A stretch of DNA of 64,000 nt from Epilithonimonas zeae (lineage in GTDB: Bacteria > Bacteroidota > Bacteroidia > Flavobacteriales > Weeksellaceae): the NCBI RefSeq assembly GCF_900141765.1, contig NZ_FSRK01000001.1:1736001-1800000 (forward strand), given 5' to 3'. Both the position numbers and the translations under genes were made by a program. Shown one piece after another: positions 34,621 through 37,828 of the stretch. Below the pieces are notes generated by a model, which was not told where the DNA came from, searched no databases, and saw nothing but the letters and a program-made list of their open reading frames with translations. How positions within the stretch are numbered: the first letter of the stretch is position 1; each line of letters begins with the position of its first letter.

Positions 34621-34640
34621 ATAGTGACACACGTCACTAT
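34621..34640. promoter_or_regulatory. candidate Crp/Fnr-family operator upstream of the DJ-1/PfpI gene
   Basis: ATAGTGACACACGTCACTAT is a perfect 8-bp inverted repeat (spacer of 4). Read as half-sites it is GTGA, 6 bases, TCAC, the spacing used by CRP-type proteins. It overlaps the last codon and stop of the Crp/Fnr gene and lies 78 bases from the start of the gene it would control. Additional GTCAC half-sites lie beside it at 34610-34614. Confidence 0.5.
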
Positions 34641-35203
34641 TTTCGGGTAATCCGGCTTAATGTTTCTCTGGAAACACCTAGATAAGAGGCTATGATGGTT
34701 TTAGGAACCCGTTGGATAAGCGTTGGATATTGCGCCGAGAACTGTTCAAACCGTTCTTTGGCATCGGTCATTAGTAAAGACAAAATTCTTTTCTGCAAAG
34801 CCACATACCCCAGACTGTTTTTGACTCTGAAAAAATGCTCCACTTTGTGATTTTCTAAACAAATCTTTTCCAAATCATCTTTGGAAAGTGAATACAGCTC
34901 AACATCTTCCAGACAATGGATGCTAGTAACCGACGGCACGCCCGTATAAAACGCCTGAAAATCCGAAATCCACCAGTTTTCCATCGCAAATTGGATGATA
35001 TGTTCTTTTCCGTGAGTATCAATATAAGAAGCTTTCAGCAAACCTTTGGTAACAAAATAAATGTTGGTAATAGGTTCGTTCTCCTGAATTAGATATTGAT
35101 GTTTCTTCAGTTTTCTCAACTTAAAATAAGAAGTAAGCGTAGCAAACTCCTCGTCTGATAACGTTATCAATTCCTCAAAATGTTTCCTTAGTTCCAAACT
35201 CAT
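34637..35203 (-). CDS. Crp/Fnr-family transcriptional regulator
   Basis: A 188-residue regulator. The cyclic-nucleotide-binding-like barrel covers residues 15-125 (KKHQYLIQENEPITNIYFVTKGLLKASYI) but lacks the arginine-containing cAMP site, so the ligand is open. The C-terminal helix-turn-helix is VPKTIIASYLGVSRETLSRITRK. The start was taken at the ATG preceding the conserved helix LRKHFEELITLSDEEF, and an upstream ATG 21 codons earlier lies in sequence with no counterpart. Located right upstream of the DJ-1/PfpI gene on the same strand, with a palindrome at its 3' end that would serve as its operator. Confidence 0.85.
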   Translation of the reverse strand: MSLELRKHFEELITLSDEEFATLTSYFKLRKLKKHQYLIQENEPITNIYFVTKGLLKASYIDTHGKEHIIQFAMENWWISDFQAFYTGVPSVTSIHCLEDVELYSLSKDDLEKICLENHKVEHFFRVKNSLGYVALQKRILSLLMTDAKERFEQFSAQYPTLIQRVPKTIIASYLGVSRETLSRITRK

Positions 35204-35257
35204 TAGTATTGTTTTAGGCTTATAGCCAAAGATAGGGATTGTTTGTGTTTGATATGA

Positions 35258-35288
35258 AAAAAGCACAGACTTAAAACCTGTGCTTTTT
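35258..35288 (-). terminator. intrinsic terminator of the 35.3-kb gene
   Basis: AAAAAGCACAG pairs with CTGTGCTTTTT around a 9-base loop, leading to a T-run on the minus strand. Confidence 0.75.
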
Positions 35289-35299
35289 ACATTATATTT

Positions 35300-35677
35300 T
35301 CAATTGTTATCGTATTTCTGAAAAAGTCTTCTCTCAAATAGTTCGCATTCGCAAATGATATTATCCTTAATATTTTCACTTGTGAAATACCCAGAACAAT
35401 CAATAAAAATTTCTTCACCAATTCTAGAAAAATCAATATTATCGCCATTTTCTAAAGTGAAAAATATTGTTAGTTTATCTATCATATTAAAATCGAATCG
35501 TGAAAATCTAAGAACATAATTGGAAATCTCTTGTCCCTTCTTAATTGTTATCATTGAGAGATGCTGTTCATCCTTAAGATTTAATGTAATGATCTTTTCA
35601 TCATTATATGCAAAAGGTGGAAAATTGATATTTTCCCAAAACCCTAGTATTTTTTTTGGATCAGTCTGAAAGCTCAT
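35300..35677 (-). CDS. hypothetical protein, coupled to the triple-repeat protein
   Basis: A 125-residue soluble protein with no family I recognise. It is largely predicted beta-strand (ISNYVLRFSRFDFNMIDKLTIFFTLENGDNIDFSRIGEEIFIDC) and ends with ELFERRLFQKYDNN. Its ATG follows the stop of the triple-repeat gene after a single base (TAA A ATG), so the two are almost certainly cotranslated from one mRNA. A terminator closes this pair. Low GC like its upstream neighbours, unlike the core genes on either side. Confidence 0.55.
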   Translation of the reverse strand: MSFQTDPKKILGFWENINFPPFAYNDEKIITLNLKDEQHLSMITIKKGQEISNYVLRFSRFDFNMIDKLTIFFTLENGDNIDFSRIGEEIFIDCSGYFTSENIKDNIICECELFERRLFQKYDNN

Positions 35678-35678
35678 T

Positions 35679-35906
35679 TTAAATTTCGGTCAAATCAATT
35701 GTTATATTTTTCCCACCTATCTTCGCAATCTCAATTAGATTGGTTGTAGTTTTTGATGATGCGTTTTTTAAAGTAATGTGCATCCCCTTTTTTACAACAA
35801 TTTTAACTATTTCAATAATATTAGATGTTGTCTTTTCTTTTGCATCAATAATCACATTTGTACCAGTATTTACAATTTCGATAATGTTAGATGTTGTTTT
35901 TCCCAT
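35679..35906 (-). CDS. small protein made of three near-identical repeats
   Basis: A 75-residue protein that is almost entirely three repeats of about 25 residues, each beginning K-T-T-S/T-N-I/L-I-E-I and ending with a beta strand (NVIIDA, MHITLKN, NITIDL). The repeats begin at residues 3, 25 and 52 and keep TT and N-x-I-E-I without exception. The middle copy has a short insertion (VVKKGMH). No signal peptide, no membrane segment, no cysteines. I do not recognise a family. The pattern suggests a small solenoid or strand-stack. It precedes the 35.3-kb gene by one base and lies 117 bases downstream of the AlbA_2 gene. Confidence 0.6.
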   Translation of the reverse strand: MGKTTSNIIEIVNTGTNVIIDAKEKTTSNIIEIVKIVVKKGMHITLKNASSKTTTNLIEIAKIGGKNITIDLTEI

Positions 35907-36023
35907 ATTTATATTTGTTTAAAAATTTTTAAGTAAATATTATAAATTTTAATTTCACATATTAAAAACTTAAATTTCGTAGAATAATGTGTCGACTTTT
36001 AATGCTTTGAATTCTATTATATC

Positions 36024-36965
36024 TTAATTTCCATTAATACTTTCATTATTTTTACAGAGGTATTCATAAATATTCATTTTGTAATTCTCATCAACTTCCT
36101 TTCTAAATTCACCTGCACTAAAATAAAGAATTGTCTCAATCTTTAATTTTTCAAATATTTCTACAAGATTGGATTTATTTATCTTCCATTTTATACGCAG
36201 TATAGTGACAGATTCATTAGGATAAATCGGCGATATTGAATTACTAGAGACTTTAATTTTCGTATCATTTATTTCAGTATAATGATAATTATTGGGATCT
36301 CTTATGTCCCAATGAAGATTTACATCAGGACAATTTATAAAATATAAATTTAATTTATAATCCTTTTCGACCATATCACCATCATTTCCTGCGAAAATTT
36401 CGATTTGTAAAGTAAAAACTGATTCGTTTTGATCTAAAAGTTGGAATTTAATATCATCGATTTGTAGTTTGGATTTAAGTTTTCTACCATATGAATTCCT
36501 AATTTCATATTCTTCCATCATAACAGATTCAAAATTAAATCGTTTATAGAATCGTTTATCTTTAGATAAATGAGGTGCATCCAAACTCTTTGGAATTTTT
36601 ATCAAGTAAATCGTTTCATTTATATTTTGGGATTTTCTAATTGGATATATATTTATATTTGAAATTCTTCTTTGTATTGAAGAATTGATTACTTGTTCTA
36701 TCCATTCTTTAGTATAGATATTTCCATCAATAAAATTTATGGCACTTGCTTTATGATTATTTTCTTGAATTCCATAAATTATTATGCCTCCTTCAGAATT
36801 TGCAAATGCGGAAATATCTTTAGCAATCTCTTTTCTTTTTCCATCAGATTTATCTAAAGCAGGGGCATCTTTAAAATCTAAATAAATAGATTCTTCAACT
36901 TCATTTAAAATTAAATTTTCTATATCTTCAAAAGTATATTCTTCTTTTAAATAAAAATTATCCAT
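36024..36965 (-). CDS. AlbA_2 (Schlafen-type) domain protein
   Basis: A 313-residue protein. Residues 12-130 fit the AlbA_2 domain: NEVEESIYLDFKDAPALDKSD, then KEIAKDISAFANSEGGIIIYGIQENN, which is the conserved Glu/Asp/Gly core that forms a nucleic-acid-binding or nuclease site in Schlafen-like proteins. The C-terminal half is beta-rich (IEIFAGNDGDMVEKDYKLNLYFINCPDVNLHWDIRDPN) and not assignable. Stand-alone AlbA_2 proteins are frequent in defence-enriched regions, and some of the wider family cut tRNA, but no activity is shown here. No helicase or HTH domain is fused. Confidence 0.75.
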   Translation of the reverse strand: MDNFYLKEEYTFEDIENLILNEVEESIYLDFKDAPALDKSDGKRKEIAKDISAFANSEGGIIIYGIQENNHKASAINFIDGNIYTKEWIEQVINSSIQRRISNINIYPIRKSQNINETIYLIKIPKSLDAPHLSKDKRFYKRFNFESVMMEEYEIRNSYGRKLKSKLQIDDIKFQLLDQNESVFTLQIEIFAGNDGDMVEKDYKLNLYFINCPDVNLHWDIRDPNNYHYTEINDTKIKVSSNSISPIYPNESVTILRIKWKINKSNLVEIFEKLKIETILYFSAGEFRKEVDENYKMNIYEYLCKNNESINGN

Positions 36966-37069
36966 ATGCTTTTTTTAAATCTAGTTATTGGGTTAATTAT
37001 TAATAAAGTATTTACATCATTTCTTGTTTTAAAAATACAATTATTAGTGAGATAATTCACAAAAAAACC
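36966..37069. other. AT-rich intergenic stretch before the tandem array
   Basis: Only A/T-rich sequence upstream of the AlbA_2 start. A plausible leader for that gene but no clear TAnnTTTG box, and no ORF. Confidence 0.4.
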
Positions 37070-37327
37070 ACCTTCACCCACTTCACAAGTGGCTAAAGGT
37101 GGTTGGTCAAGTGGTTGTAACAGGTTAAGAACCGGCTGTAACGATTTCCATAACCGGTTGCAGGTGGTTACCTAAGTGGTCTAGGGCGGTTGTTGACTGC
37201 CCAAAGGTGGTTAGGTAAGTGGGTGTGACCACTTGTACAACCGGTCGCAGGTACTTCGAGACCGGTGGCGACCATTTCCGAACCGGGTAAAGGGTGGTTG
37301 AGAACCGGGGGTACCCCCTCCCGAACC
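37070..37327. repeat. tandem array of twelve degenerate 21/22-bp units
   Basis: Twelve consecutive units of 21 or 22 bp starting at 37070, 37091, 37113, 37134, 37156, 37178, 37200, 37221, 37243, 37264, 37285 and 37307. Each has GG (or a variant) at positions 1-2, TT at about 13-14, and ends in AACC or AAGT, so unit junctions read AACCGG (five times, with GACCGG once) or AAGTGG (four times). GC is clearly higher than in neighbouring DNA (about 50-75 per cent per unit). Lengths mix 21 and 22, so it cannot be a coding repeat in one frame. It starts 12 bases beyond the stop of the next gene (3' side). Confidence 0.8.
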
Positions 37328-37339
37328 ACCCCCTCTGGA

Positions 37340-37828
37340 CTAATCTTGTTTTTCAGATTCTCCAGGAATGGTGGATGTTGGCGCAATAAAAAACTGCTTC
37401 ATATCGTCATAGATGACATTGGTGCCAGGAACGTTTTCGCTGGACACATATTTTACATTTCGGTAAAACGTGAGCGAGTTGTGGTAGTTGTCAAAATCCA
37501 GCAGAATCTTGGTGTCAGAGAACTGCTCGGTCAGCGAGTTAAGTCTTTGCATACGGCTTTCCATCTGTTGTCTCGCATCATAATCTTTGTCATACTCTGC
37601 CTTGTCCAGAAACGGCGGAACATACTGTGGGTACTGCTCCATATAGCCTTTGGCTTTGTTCACAAAGAGTTTGTTCTGCTCGGCGATACTGCCGTACTGC
37701 TGGCGCTGTTCTGGCGTCAGATTGATGGTTTTGCCCAGCAATACAGATTCGATAATGCTAATAGCGTCGTCTAGTTTTGTAAGTTCAGCATTCGTGAACT
37801 CTACACTGATTAAATTTTCTAGTGCCAT
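37340..37828 (-). CDS. hypothetical protein, helical, GC-richer than neighbours, followed by the tandem array
   Basis: A 162-residue cytoplasmic protein, largely alpha-helical and coiled-coil in character (AELTKLDDAISIIESVLLGK, then LTPEQRQQYGSIAEQNKLF and ARQQMESRMQRLNSLTEQF). Proteins with this LTPEQRQQYG pattern are, from memory, common hypothetical proteins in flavobacteria. Function is unknown. Codon use differs from the surroundings: GC-rich third positions (CTG, CGC, CAG, GCC) stand out against the AT-rich neighbours, a sign of transfer or strong selection. The tandem array begins just after its stop codon. No catalytic motif seen. Confidence 0.7.
   Translation of the reverse strand: MALENLISVEFTNAELTKLDDAISIIESVLLGKTINLTPEQRQQYGSIAEQNKLFVNKAKGYMEQYPQYVPPFLDKAEYDKDYDARQQMESRMQRLNSLTEQFSDTKILLDFDNYHNSLTFYRNVKYVSSENVPGTNVIYDDMKQFFIAPTSTIPGESEKQD

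Follow-up and report, generated by a model that had tools for sequence, protein, structure and literature searches.

We show that, in Epilithonimonas zeae, a gene for a small, predicted helical protein is followed directly by a tandem array of short, degenerate, mirror-symmetric units, and that arrays of the same geometry accompany relatives of this gene across Bacteroidota. Within the window, as we call the whole 64,000-nucleotide stretch of contig NZ_FSRK01000001.1 that was analyzed, the array is real, and it is not isolated. From lineage to lineage, the arrays keep their spacing and their mirror symmetry while their letters change, and they look like a putative landing strip for a protein, of a kind hitherto undescribed.

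A sequence-only reading of the window had proposed twelve units spaced by 21 or 22 bp, and every one of these unit starts and steps is borne out, the steps running 21, 22, 21, 22, 22, 22, 21, 22, 21, 21 and 22 bp, with a last unit of 21 bp (Table 1). Its account of the units themselves fits most of them: GG lies within the first five bases of ten of the twelve, TT occupies positions 13-14 in nine, and ten end in AACC or AAGT, the two exceptions ending in ACTG and GACC. The GC content per unit, put there at about 50-75%, spans 0.43 to 0.76, and that of the 500-bp flanks is 0.23 and 0.43, the second flank being the gene. On the minus strand, which is the sense of the gene, the units follow the grammar CC-(GG/AC)TT-N3/4-AA(CC/GT)-..., and dyads lie at the N3/4 spacer and half a unit away from it; judging from the units, the choice between 21 and 22 bp in the window group comes down to whether 3 or 4 bp separate TT from AA. 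A chain model with a learned 21-column profile and permitted steps of 20-23 bp gives the array a score of 134.4, against a mean of 38.2 (sd 7.8, maximum 68.2) in 1000 dinucleotide shuffles, the kind of randomized-sequence comparison that the earlier reading had called for. It is the sole such array in the window, where the next-best place scores 57. A tandem-repeat finder, the other check then suggested, reports no array in this interval (TRF, minimum score 30), because the units are too degenerate. A coding repeat is ruled out by steps that mix 20-23 bp and by a stop codon between gene and array, in agreement with the argument from mixed unit lengths that the array cannot be a protein repeat in one frame. 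Curved DNA by 10.5-bp phasing was also rejected, the autocorrelation of W/S and AA/TT being 0.00 to +0.02 at lags 10-11.

Table 1. Features of the array locus, in coordinates of the window
Feature	Position	Strand	Remarks
Array	37070..37327	.	12 degenerate 21/22-bp units
Terminator-like hairpin of the last array units	37066..37104	-	AACCACC...GGTGGTT, followed by a minus-strand T-run
Long hairpin at the gene-proximal array end	37292..37331	-	GGTGGTTCGGGAGGGGGTACCCCC...AACCACC
Founder gene of the family	37340..37828	-	162 aa; array directly 3' of the gene
AlbA_2 gene	36024..36965	-	313 aa; next gene 3' of the array; Schlafen AlbA_2, PF04326, E 1.5e-16
Two small ORFs	35300..35906	-	75 and 125 aa; same variable stretch as the AlbA_2 gene

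The product of the founder gene is acidic and all-helical in its AlphaFold2 model (mean pLDDT 87.7). Searches of Pfam and NCBIfam brought no match that passed the cut-off, those of PHROGs none with E under 0.01 and that of PADLOC none at all, and neither Foldseek nor VIA-align returned a convincing structural relative, a weak test for a helical protein. A profile search, run on 4943 candidates from 5.8 billion proteins, gathered 1016 relatives at E 1e-3; among the 120 of these matches listed, the named ones are hypothetical proteins, many from Chryseobacterium and one from Epilithonimonas, or carry unrelated automatic names. The median pI of the family proteins is 5.2, with values above 8 in 3 of 111. 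Forty-eight of 198 related genomes, that of E. zeae included, contain a family match, often as several divergent copies.

The array travels with this family. We collected 147 family loci (85, with those of the E. zeae genome, and 62 more, some from the same genomes again), which include loci from Chryseobacterium, Epilithonimonas, Aquimarina, Kordia, Capnocytophaga and Taibaiella. A lack of any 21/22-bp period at homologous loci had been named in advance as a finding that would refute the array, and the opposite is seen: in the 300 bp downstream of 83 loci, the mean autocorrelation peaks at 0.410 for lag 21 and 0.332 for lag 22, and again at 0.372 for lag 42 and 0.353 for lag 63, over a baseline near 0.27. 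No comparable period was found upstream of 85 family loci, nor within the genes apart from the codon period. When 143 of the 147 loci were scored against 858 shuffles, four being left out for short downstream sequence, 122 lay above the 95% point, 118 above the 99% point and 114 above the maximum. Once identical stretches are removed, an array above the 99% point of the null stands just 3' of the gene in 111 of 136 distinct loci, which are still related to one another, and the same threshold is passed by 8 of 300 ordinary downstream regions (drawn from 485) of the E. zeae genome. The remaining 25 distinct loci have no array within 300 bp at this level. Among the 21 loci below the 95% point, the gene is truncated in three (L021, L069 and L149) and the array lies further away in three others (L110, L111 and L136), the rest having none visible. 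The link between the array and its neighboring gene is real, being kept from Chryseobacterium to Taibaiella.

Across these loci, the unit consensus is wholly different between distant members: GGTT/AACC in the window, TCCGGA in L023, L024, L028 and L036, GAACCCC in L027 and GAGTC/GACTC in L082, with units of 22 bp in L038 and L143. Array similarity tracks the identity of the linked proteins, averaging 0.91 above 90% identity and falling to 0.32-0.33, the level of unrelated arrays, below about 35%; in 11 of 147 pairs above 75% protein identity, the arrays were no more alike than unrelated ones. The geometry is far more uniform. Out of 970 steps, in a model limited to 20-23 bp, 618 measure 21 bp, 315 measure 22 bp, 31 measure 20 bp and 6 measure 23 bp; the mean step of 21.31 bp, together with a model-free autocorrelation that peaks at 21-22, upholds the spacing of two helical turns noted at the outset for the window. 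Instead of being plain direct repeats, the units show dyad symmetry, which exceeds that of column-permuted versions in 90 of 111 arrays at p<0.05 and in 76 of them at p<0.01. Unit number and the order of 21- and 22-bp steps are nearly the same in L001, L004 and L005, and L006 and L007 have one unit fewer. We also observed a CCCCCTT-N4-AAGGGGG unit inside many Chryseobacterium arrays. In L018, the array lies 76 bp after the gene and consists of 43-bp double units, mostly exact repeats and unlike the degenerate arrays elsewhere, which suggests recent homogenization or expansion.

Most arrays are also better conserved than the synonymous positions beside them. In 21 orthologous pairs, hand-chosen and in part sharing loci, array identity, whose low values are inflated by gapped DNA alignment, exceeds that at 4-fold sites of the linked gene in 17 (by at most 0.02 in three), equals it in two and falls below it in two. 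Examples are 0.90 versus 0.74 in L001/L003 and 0.91 versus 0.67 in L004/L005 on the one side, and 0.90 versus 0.99 in L019/L020 and 0.87 versus 0.90 in L100/L104 on the other. Among the close relatives of the window array, the AA and TT columns are 0.94-1.00 identical and the 3/4-bp spacer 0.61-0.82.

Sites that are phase-locked, symmetric, mostly conserved and strand-symmetric argue for a cooperative DNA-binding protein. The reading that we prefer, and to which we give roughly an even chance of being right, is that selection maintains the array as double-stranded DNA, a platform of many sites for a putative multimeric DNA-binding protein. In such a platform, dyad-symmetric sites, about 8-19 of them, follow one another every two helical turns, at a mean distance of 21.3 bp; all would then face the same side of the helix, with neighboring half-sites alternating in orientation. 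The sites would be filled cooperatively by a multimeric protein, turning some 250 bp between two genes into a nucleoprotein complex, which might affect how the gene behind the array is expressed or how stable it is. Sequence specificity would drift between lineages and the geometry would stay. Among the points against a DNA platform is the conservation of single letters. Eight columns outside the spacer have no clear majority letter within arrays, and in the closest group five of these are 0.83-0.95 identical and three 0.67-0.77; single units therefore tend to keep their own letters, a conservation that tends to exceed the need of simple operator sites.

Arrays also occur away from the family gene. 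A DNA search of the E. zeae genome returned a second full-length copy of the window array, at 78% identity over 274 bp, and copies lie at the same place in six relatives, a place that has no family gene. This second locus is flanked by genes that, judged by their sequence, presumably encode an acyl-CoA dehydrogenase and an AsmA-like protein. Seven other genomes of the genus have a different array type at the same place (six were fitted, with scores of 66-79), which, with the seven type I genomes, brings the presence of an array there to 14 of 23 genomes. These free arrays are mostly conserved as well. Compared with 4-fold positions of the flanking genes, identity is 0.79-0.95 versus 0.49-0.80 in five type I pairs and 0.76 versus 0.57-0.65 in L171/L172, and in one of the seven pairs, L176/L171, the array value of 0.76 falls between flanking values of 0.79 and 0.74. 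For type II, six pairs give 0.77-0.88 versus 0.57-0.67, two further pairs being without codon data. Other genomes of Epilithonimonas and Chryseobacterium contain further free-standing arrays. A scan of 800 kb of the E. zeae genome gave 14 regions above a score of 65, half of them in reading frames. The seven that lie elsewhere are two arrays, at the second locus (127) and behind L002, the other family gene (126), a pair of candidates scoring 99 and 89, two simple repeats of 4 bp and a short run of 22/23-bp steps. In genome G017, which has no family match, a free array of 22 units made of near-identical 41-43-bp pairs lies at about 5050-5475 of L191 (contig C9).

These free arrays bear on the identity of the binder. 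It could be that the platform is as we propose and that the linked 162-aa family protein itself binds, each paralogue reading its own array, a possibility that had been raised for the neighboring gene from the start and that we consider doubtful. No other cluster of neighbors is present at more than 17 of the 147 loci, the gene's shadow frames left aside, and the array type tracks protein identity; however, co-inheritance alone explains this correlation. The proteins are acidic, no DNA-binding fold was found for them by Foldseek or VIA-align, again a weak test for helical proteins, and arrays persist where the cognate gene does not: no type I gene is intact in G005, G003 and G009, whose type I arrays remain, and in G008 a type II array is present with no family match in the genome. 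The conserved free arrays include those of G005 and G003, which are without a close type I gene, and that of G008. The acidity of the protein, coupled with the conservation of arrays in some genomes that lack the gene, suggests that the binder may be another protein, with the linked one as its partner or as a regulated passenger.

The other main rival, which we likewise hold to be improbable, is that the array acts as RNA: a repeat-rich 3' UTR or a small RNA, processed or else bound in single-stranded form, with its own terminator hairpin. In its favor, the gene before the window array has no other obvious terminator, and a strong hairpin with a T-run (A at 37061-37067 on the forward strand) closes the array. 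This hairpin is kept with small changes in the orthologues L003-L007, the long hairpin at the gene-proximal end is kept in L003-L005 and partly broken in L006 and L007, and one or more hairpins are conserved in every one of three orthologous groups. In other groups, however, a terminator-like hairpin precedes the array, and the consensus is strand-symmetric. Moreover, the two arms of the same dyad pair slightly less well than swapped arms (z of -2.24 and -2.75 for the two dyads, in arrays of at least 7 units), which argues against arrays of hairpins and for double-stranded DNA sites; the values from an arm-swap variant in which each array loses its best hairpin are set aside here, being biased downwards. 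Permutation of half-units leaves little excess of folding energy, with a mean z of -0.53 and -0.46 on the two strands of 104 arrays, of which 10 and 8 fold more than 2 sd better than permuted; the lowest values, -3.7, belong to L130 and L139. About one hairpin per array stands out, or two in the window group, one at each end, and the mean excess is probably accounted for by about one terminator-like hairpin per array. Consensus folding yields double changes in 15, 6 and 8 pairs that are not assigned to one hairpin and may be shifts of the whole consensus, and its column-shuffle z-scores are not used here as proof of RNA structure because the shuffle also destroys period and symmetry. Rfam has no match at gathering score over the array in 20 loci, the two matches found lying outside the arrays, and in the window the best match over the array reaches 21 bits against a gathering score of 105. 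The evidence favors protein-binding DNA, as had been proposed. In L045, a Flavo-1 RNA (RF01705; 1040-1127, minus strand) adjoins an array without overlapping it.

The genes behind the arrays are variable. The next gene is co-directional at 93 of 110 family loci, compared with 453 of 614 control neighbors in the E. zeae genome over all gaps and 59 of 88 over gaps of at least 250 bp (raw counts throughout), so that the array tends to stand before a gene start. At the second locus, six different cargo sets follow the type I array over seven genomes and include TPR (twice), DUF2314 and SUKH genes, the others being unassigned. At the window locus, the place is taken by the AlbA_2 gene in E. zeae and elsewhere by a 284-aa gene or by a trypsin-like gene with another gene, in G001 by a leucine-rich-repeat/TIR gene that follows a partial array, and in L202, L203 and L204, from three genomes, by genes that we take from their sequence to be Y1-transposase-like; G005 has neither gene, array nor cargo there. 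The array could on this account be a platform for gene exchange, integron-like in outcome, at which a recombinase encoded elsewhere swaps the 3' cargo. We think this quite unlikely. The six cargo sets, with another array or none in the other genomes, would fit it, as would the identity just after the array, which is below 0.6 for 10 of the 21 orthologous pairs, whereas upstream of the gene a single pair of the 21 is that low. However, about 45 bp past the array are largely common to the seven genomes at the second locus (L170-L176, with an insertion in L173) before the cargo differs, which places the junction outside the array and gives no support there to a precise crossover within it. Cargo also turns over at places without an array, and a non-systematic look found no recombinase or fixed crossover point. 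The shared 45 bp (about 4760-4805 in L170, likewise in L171-L176) hold a TTG...TATTTTTA motif that resembles the Bacteroidota promoter and is directed towards the variable gene.

That the array is a functionless, neutral minisatellite born of slippage is very improbable: freshly homogenized arrays such as L018, with its exact 43-bp repeats, and that of G017, and the slightly greater likeness of neighboring units (0.514 at distance 1 versus 0.444-0.464 at distances 7-9) speak for it, but in most pairs the arrays are better conserved than 4-fold sites, orthologues have nearly the same number of units and order of 21s and 22s, and the same period and symmetry recur with unrelated letters in distant lineages.

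The DNA platform that we favor shares features with several known systems. Iteron arrays of plasmid replication origins also consist of tandem sites about two helical turns apart beside one gene, and an iteron-type array or a mobile element had been suggested for the window. This suggestion is not supported: a Pfam scan of 8 window ORFs gave no replication initiator or Rep family, the units are dyad-symmetric and unlike between loci, and the array is chromosomal. A mobile element was rejected because relatives of the 162-aa protein are absent from phage and plasmid records by tblastn, and a pattern search for its close clade and relatives confirmed nothing in viral contigs. Partition centromeres such as parC with ParR similarly have about ten phased sites beside the gene of a small protein; in contrast to ParMRC and ParABS, the scan of 8 window ORFs showed no partition gene (ATPase or filament), the linked protein is acidic, and there are several array loci per chromosome. 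Type III toxin-antitoxin systems likewise pair a repeat array, ToxI, with a neighboring gene whose product has about 160 aa. Here, however, the array is 3' and not 5' of the gene, its units are 21/22-nt and degenerate, and searches of Pfam, NCBIfam, PHROGs and PADLOC assigned the window protein to no ToxN, CptN or TenpN family. REP/BIME elements with their RAYT transposases (PMC6006769) are dispersed, intergenic and symmetric with one copy beside the gene, in which the array is alike; unlike in that system, the family gene has no Y1 (HUH) transposase match, and the array has 8-19 units at fixed spacing and no hairpin palindrome per unit. Within the same phylum, PINSR of Prevotella intermedia is a dispersed intergenic repeat of similar length, 188 bp, with 177 and 184 copies in two strains, and the portion of its description available sets it apart, by description alone, as having one consensus and no stated internal period (PMC4755523). 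The available parts of these two papers and of PMC4679880 contain nothing that describes the array element, nor did we find a description in open-access PMC papers, subscription journals lying outside this search.

Free letters combined with fixed spacing and symmetry escape both repeat finders and similarity searches, and such arrays may therefore be overlooked in many genomes. The array gives a testable molecular context to a family of 1016 sequences with no assigned function, and a handle on how Bacteroidota organize and regulate exchangeable genes. More broadly, and only as a tentative suggestion, the arrays may form a phylum-wide class defined by geometry, with about ten dyad sites every 21.3 bp, a helical protein family in cis, satellites that outlive the gene, and a platform role for exchangeable accessory genes, such as silencing them or forming a boundary. 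To our knowledge, no xenogeneic silencer of the H-NS/Lsr2 type has been settled for Bacteroidota.

A few further observations concern the surroundings of the arrays. In the window, the two small ORFs sit between the AlbA_2 gene and a Crp-type regulator (34637-35266). The 75-aa ORF (35679-35906, minus strand), which has no family match above cut-off, consists of three similar stretches, TTSNIIEIV, TTSNIIEIV and TTTNLIEIA, and adjoins a two-copy 22-bp repeat (35937-35978). A REP-like GCTCCGGAGGAGC palindrome is present at the related locus L209. In genome G001, a leucine-rich-repeat/TIR cargo that matches Thoeris ThsB profiles lies behind a partial array (L180, 705-1844).
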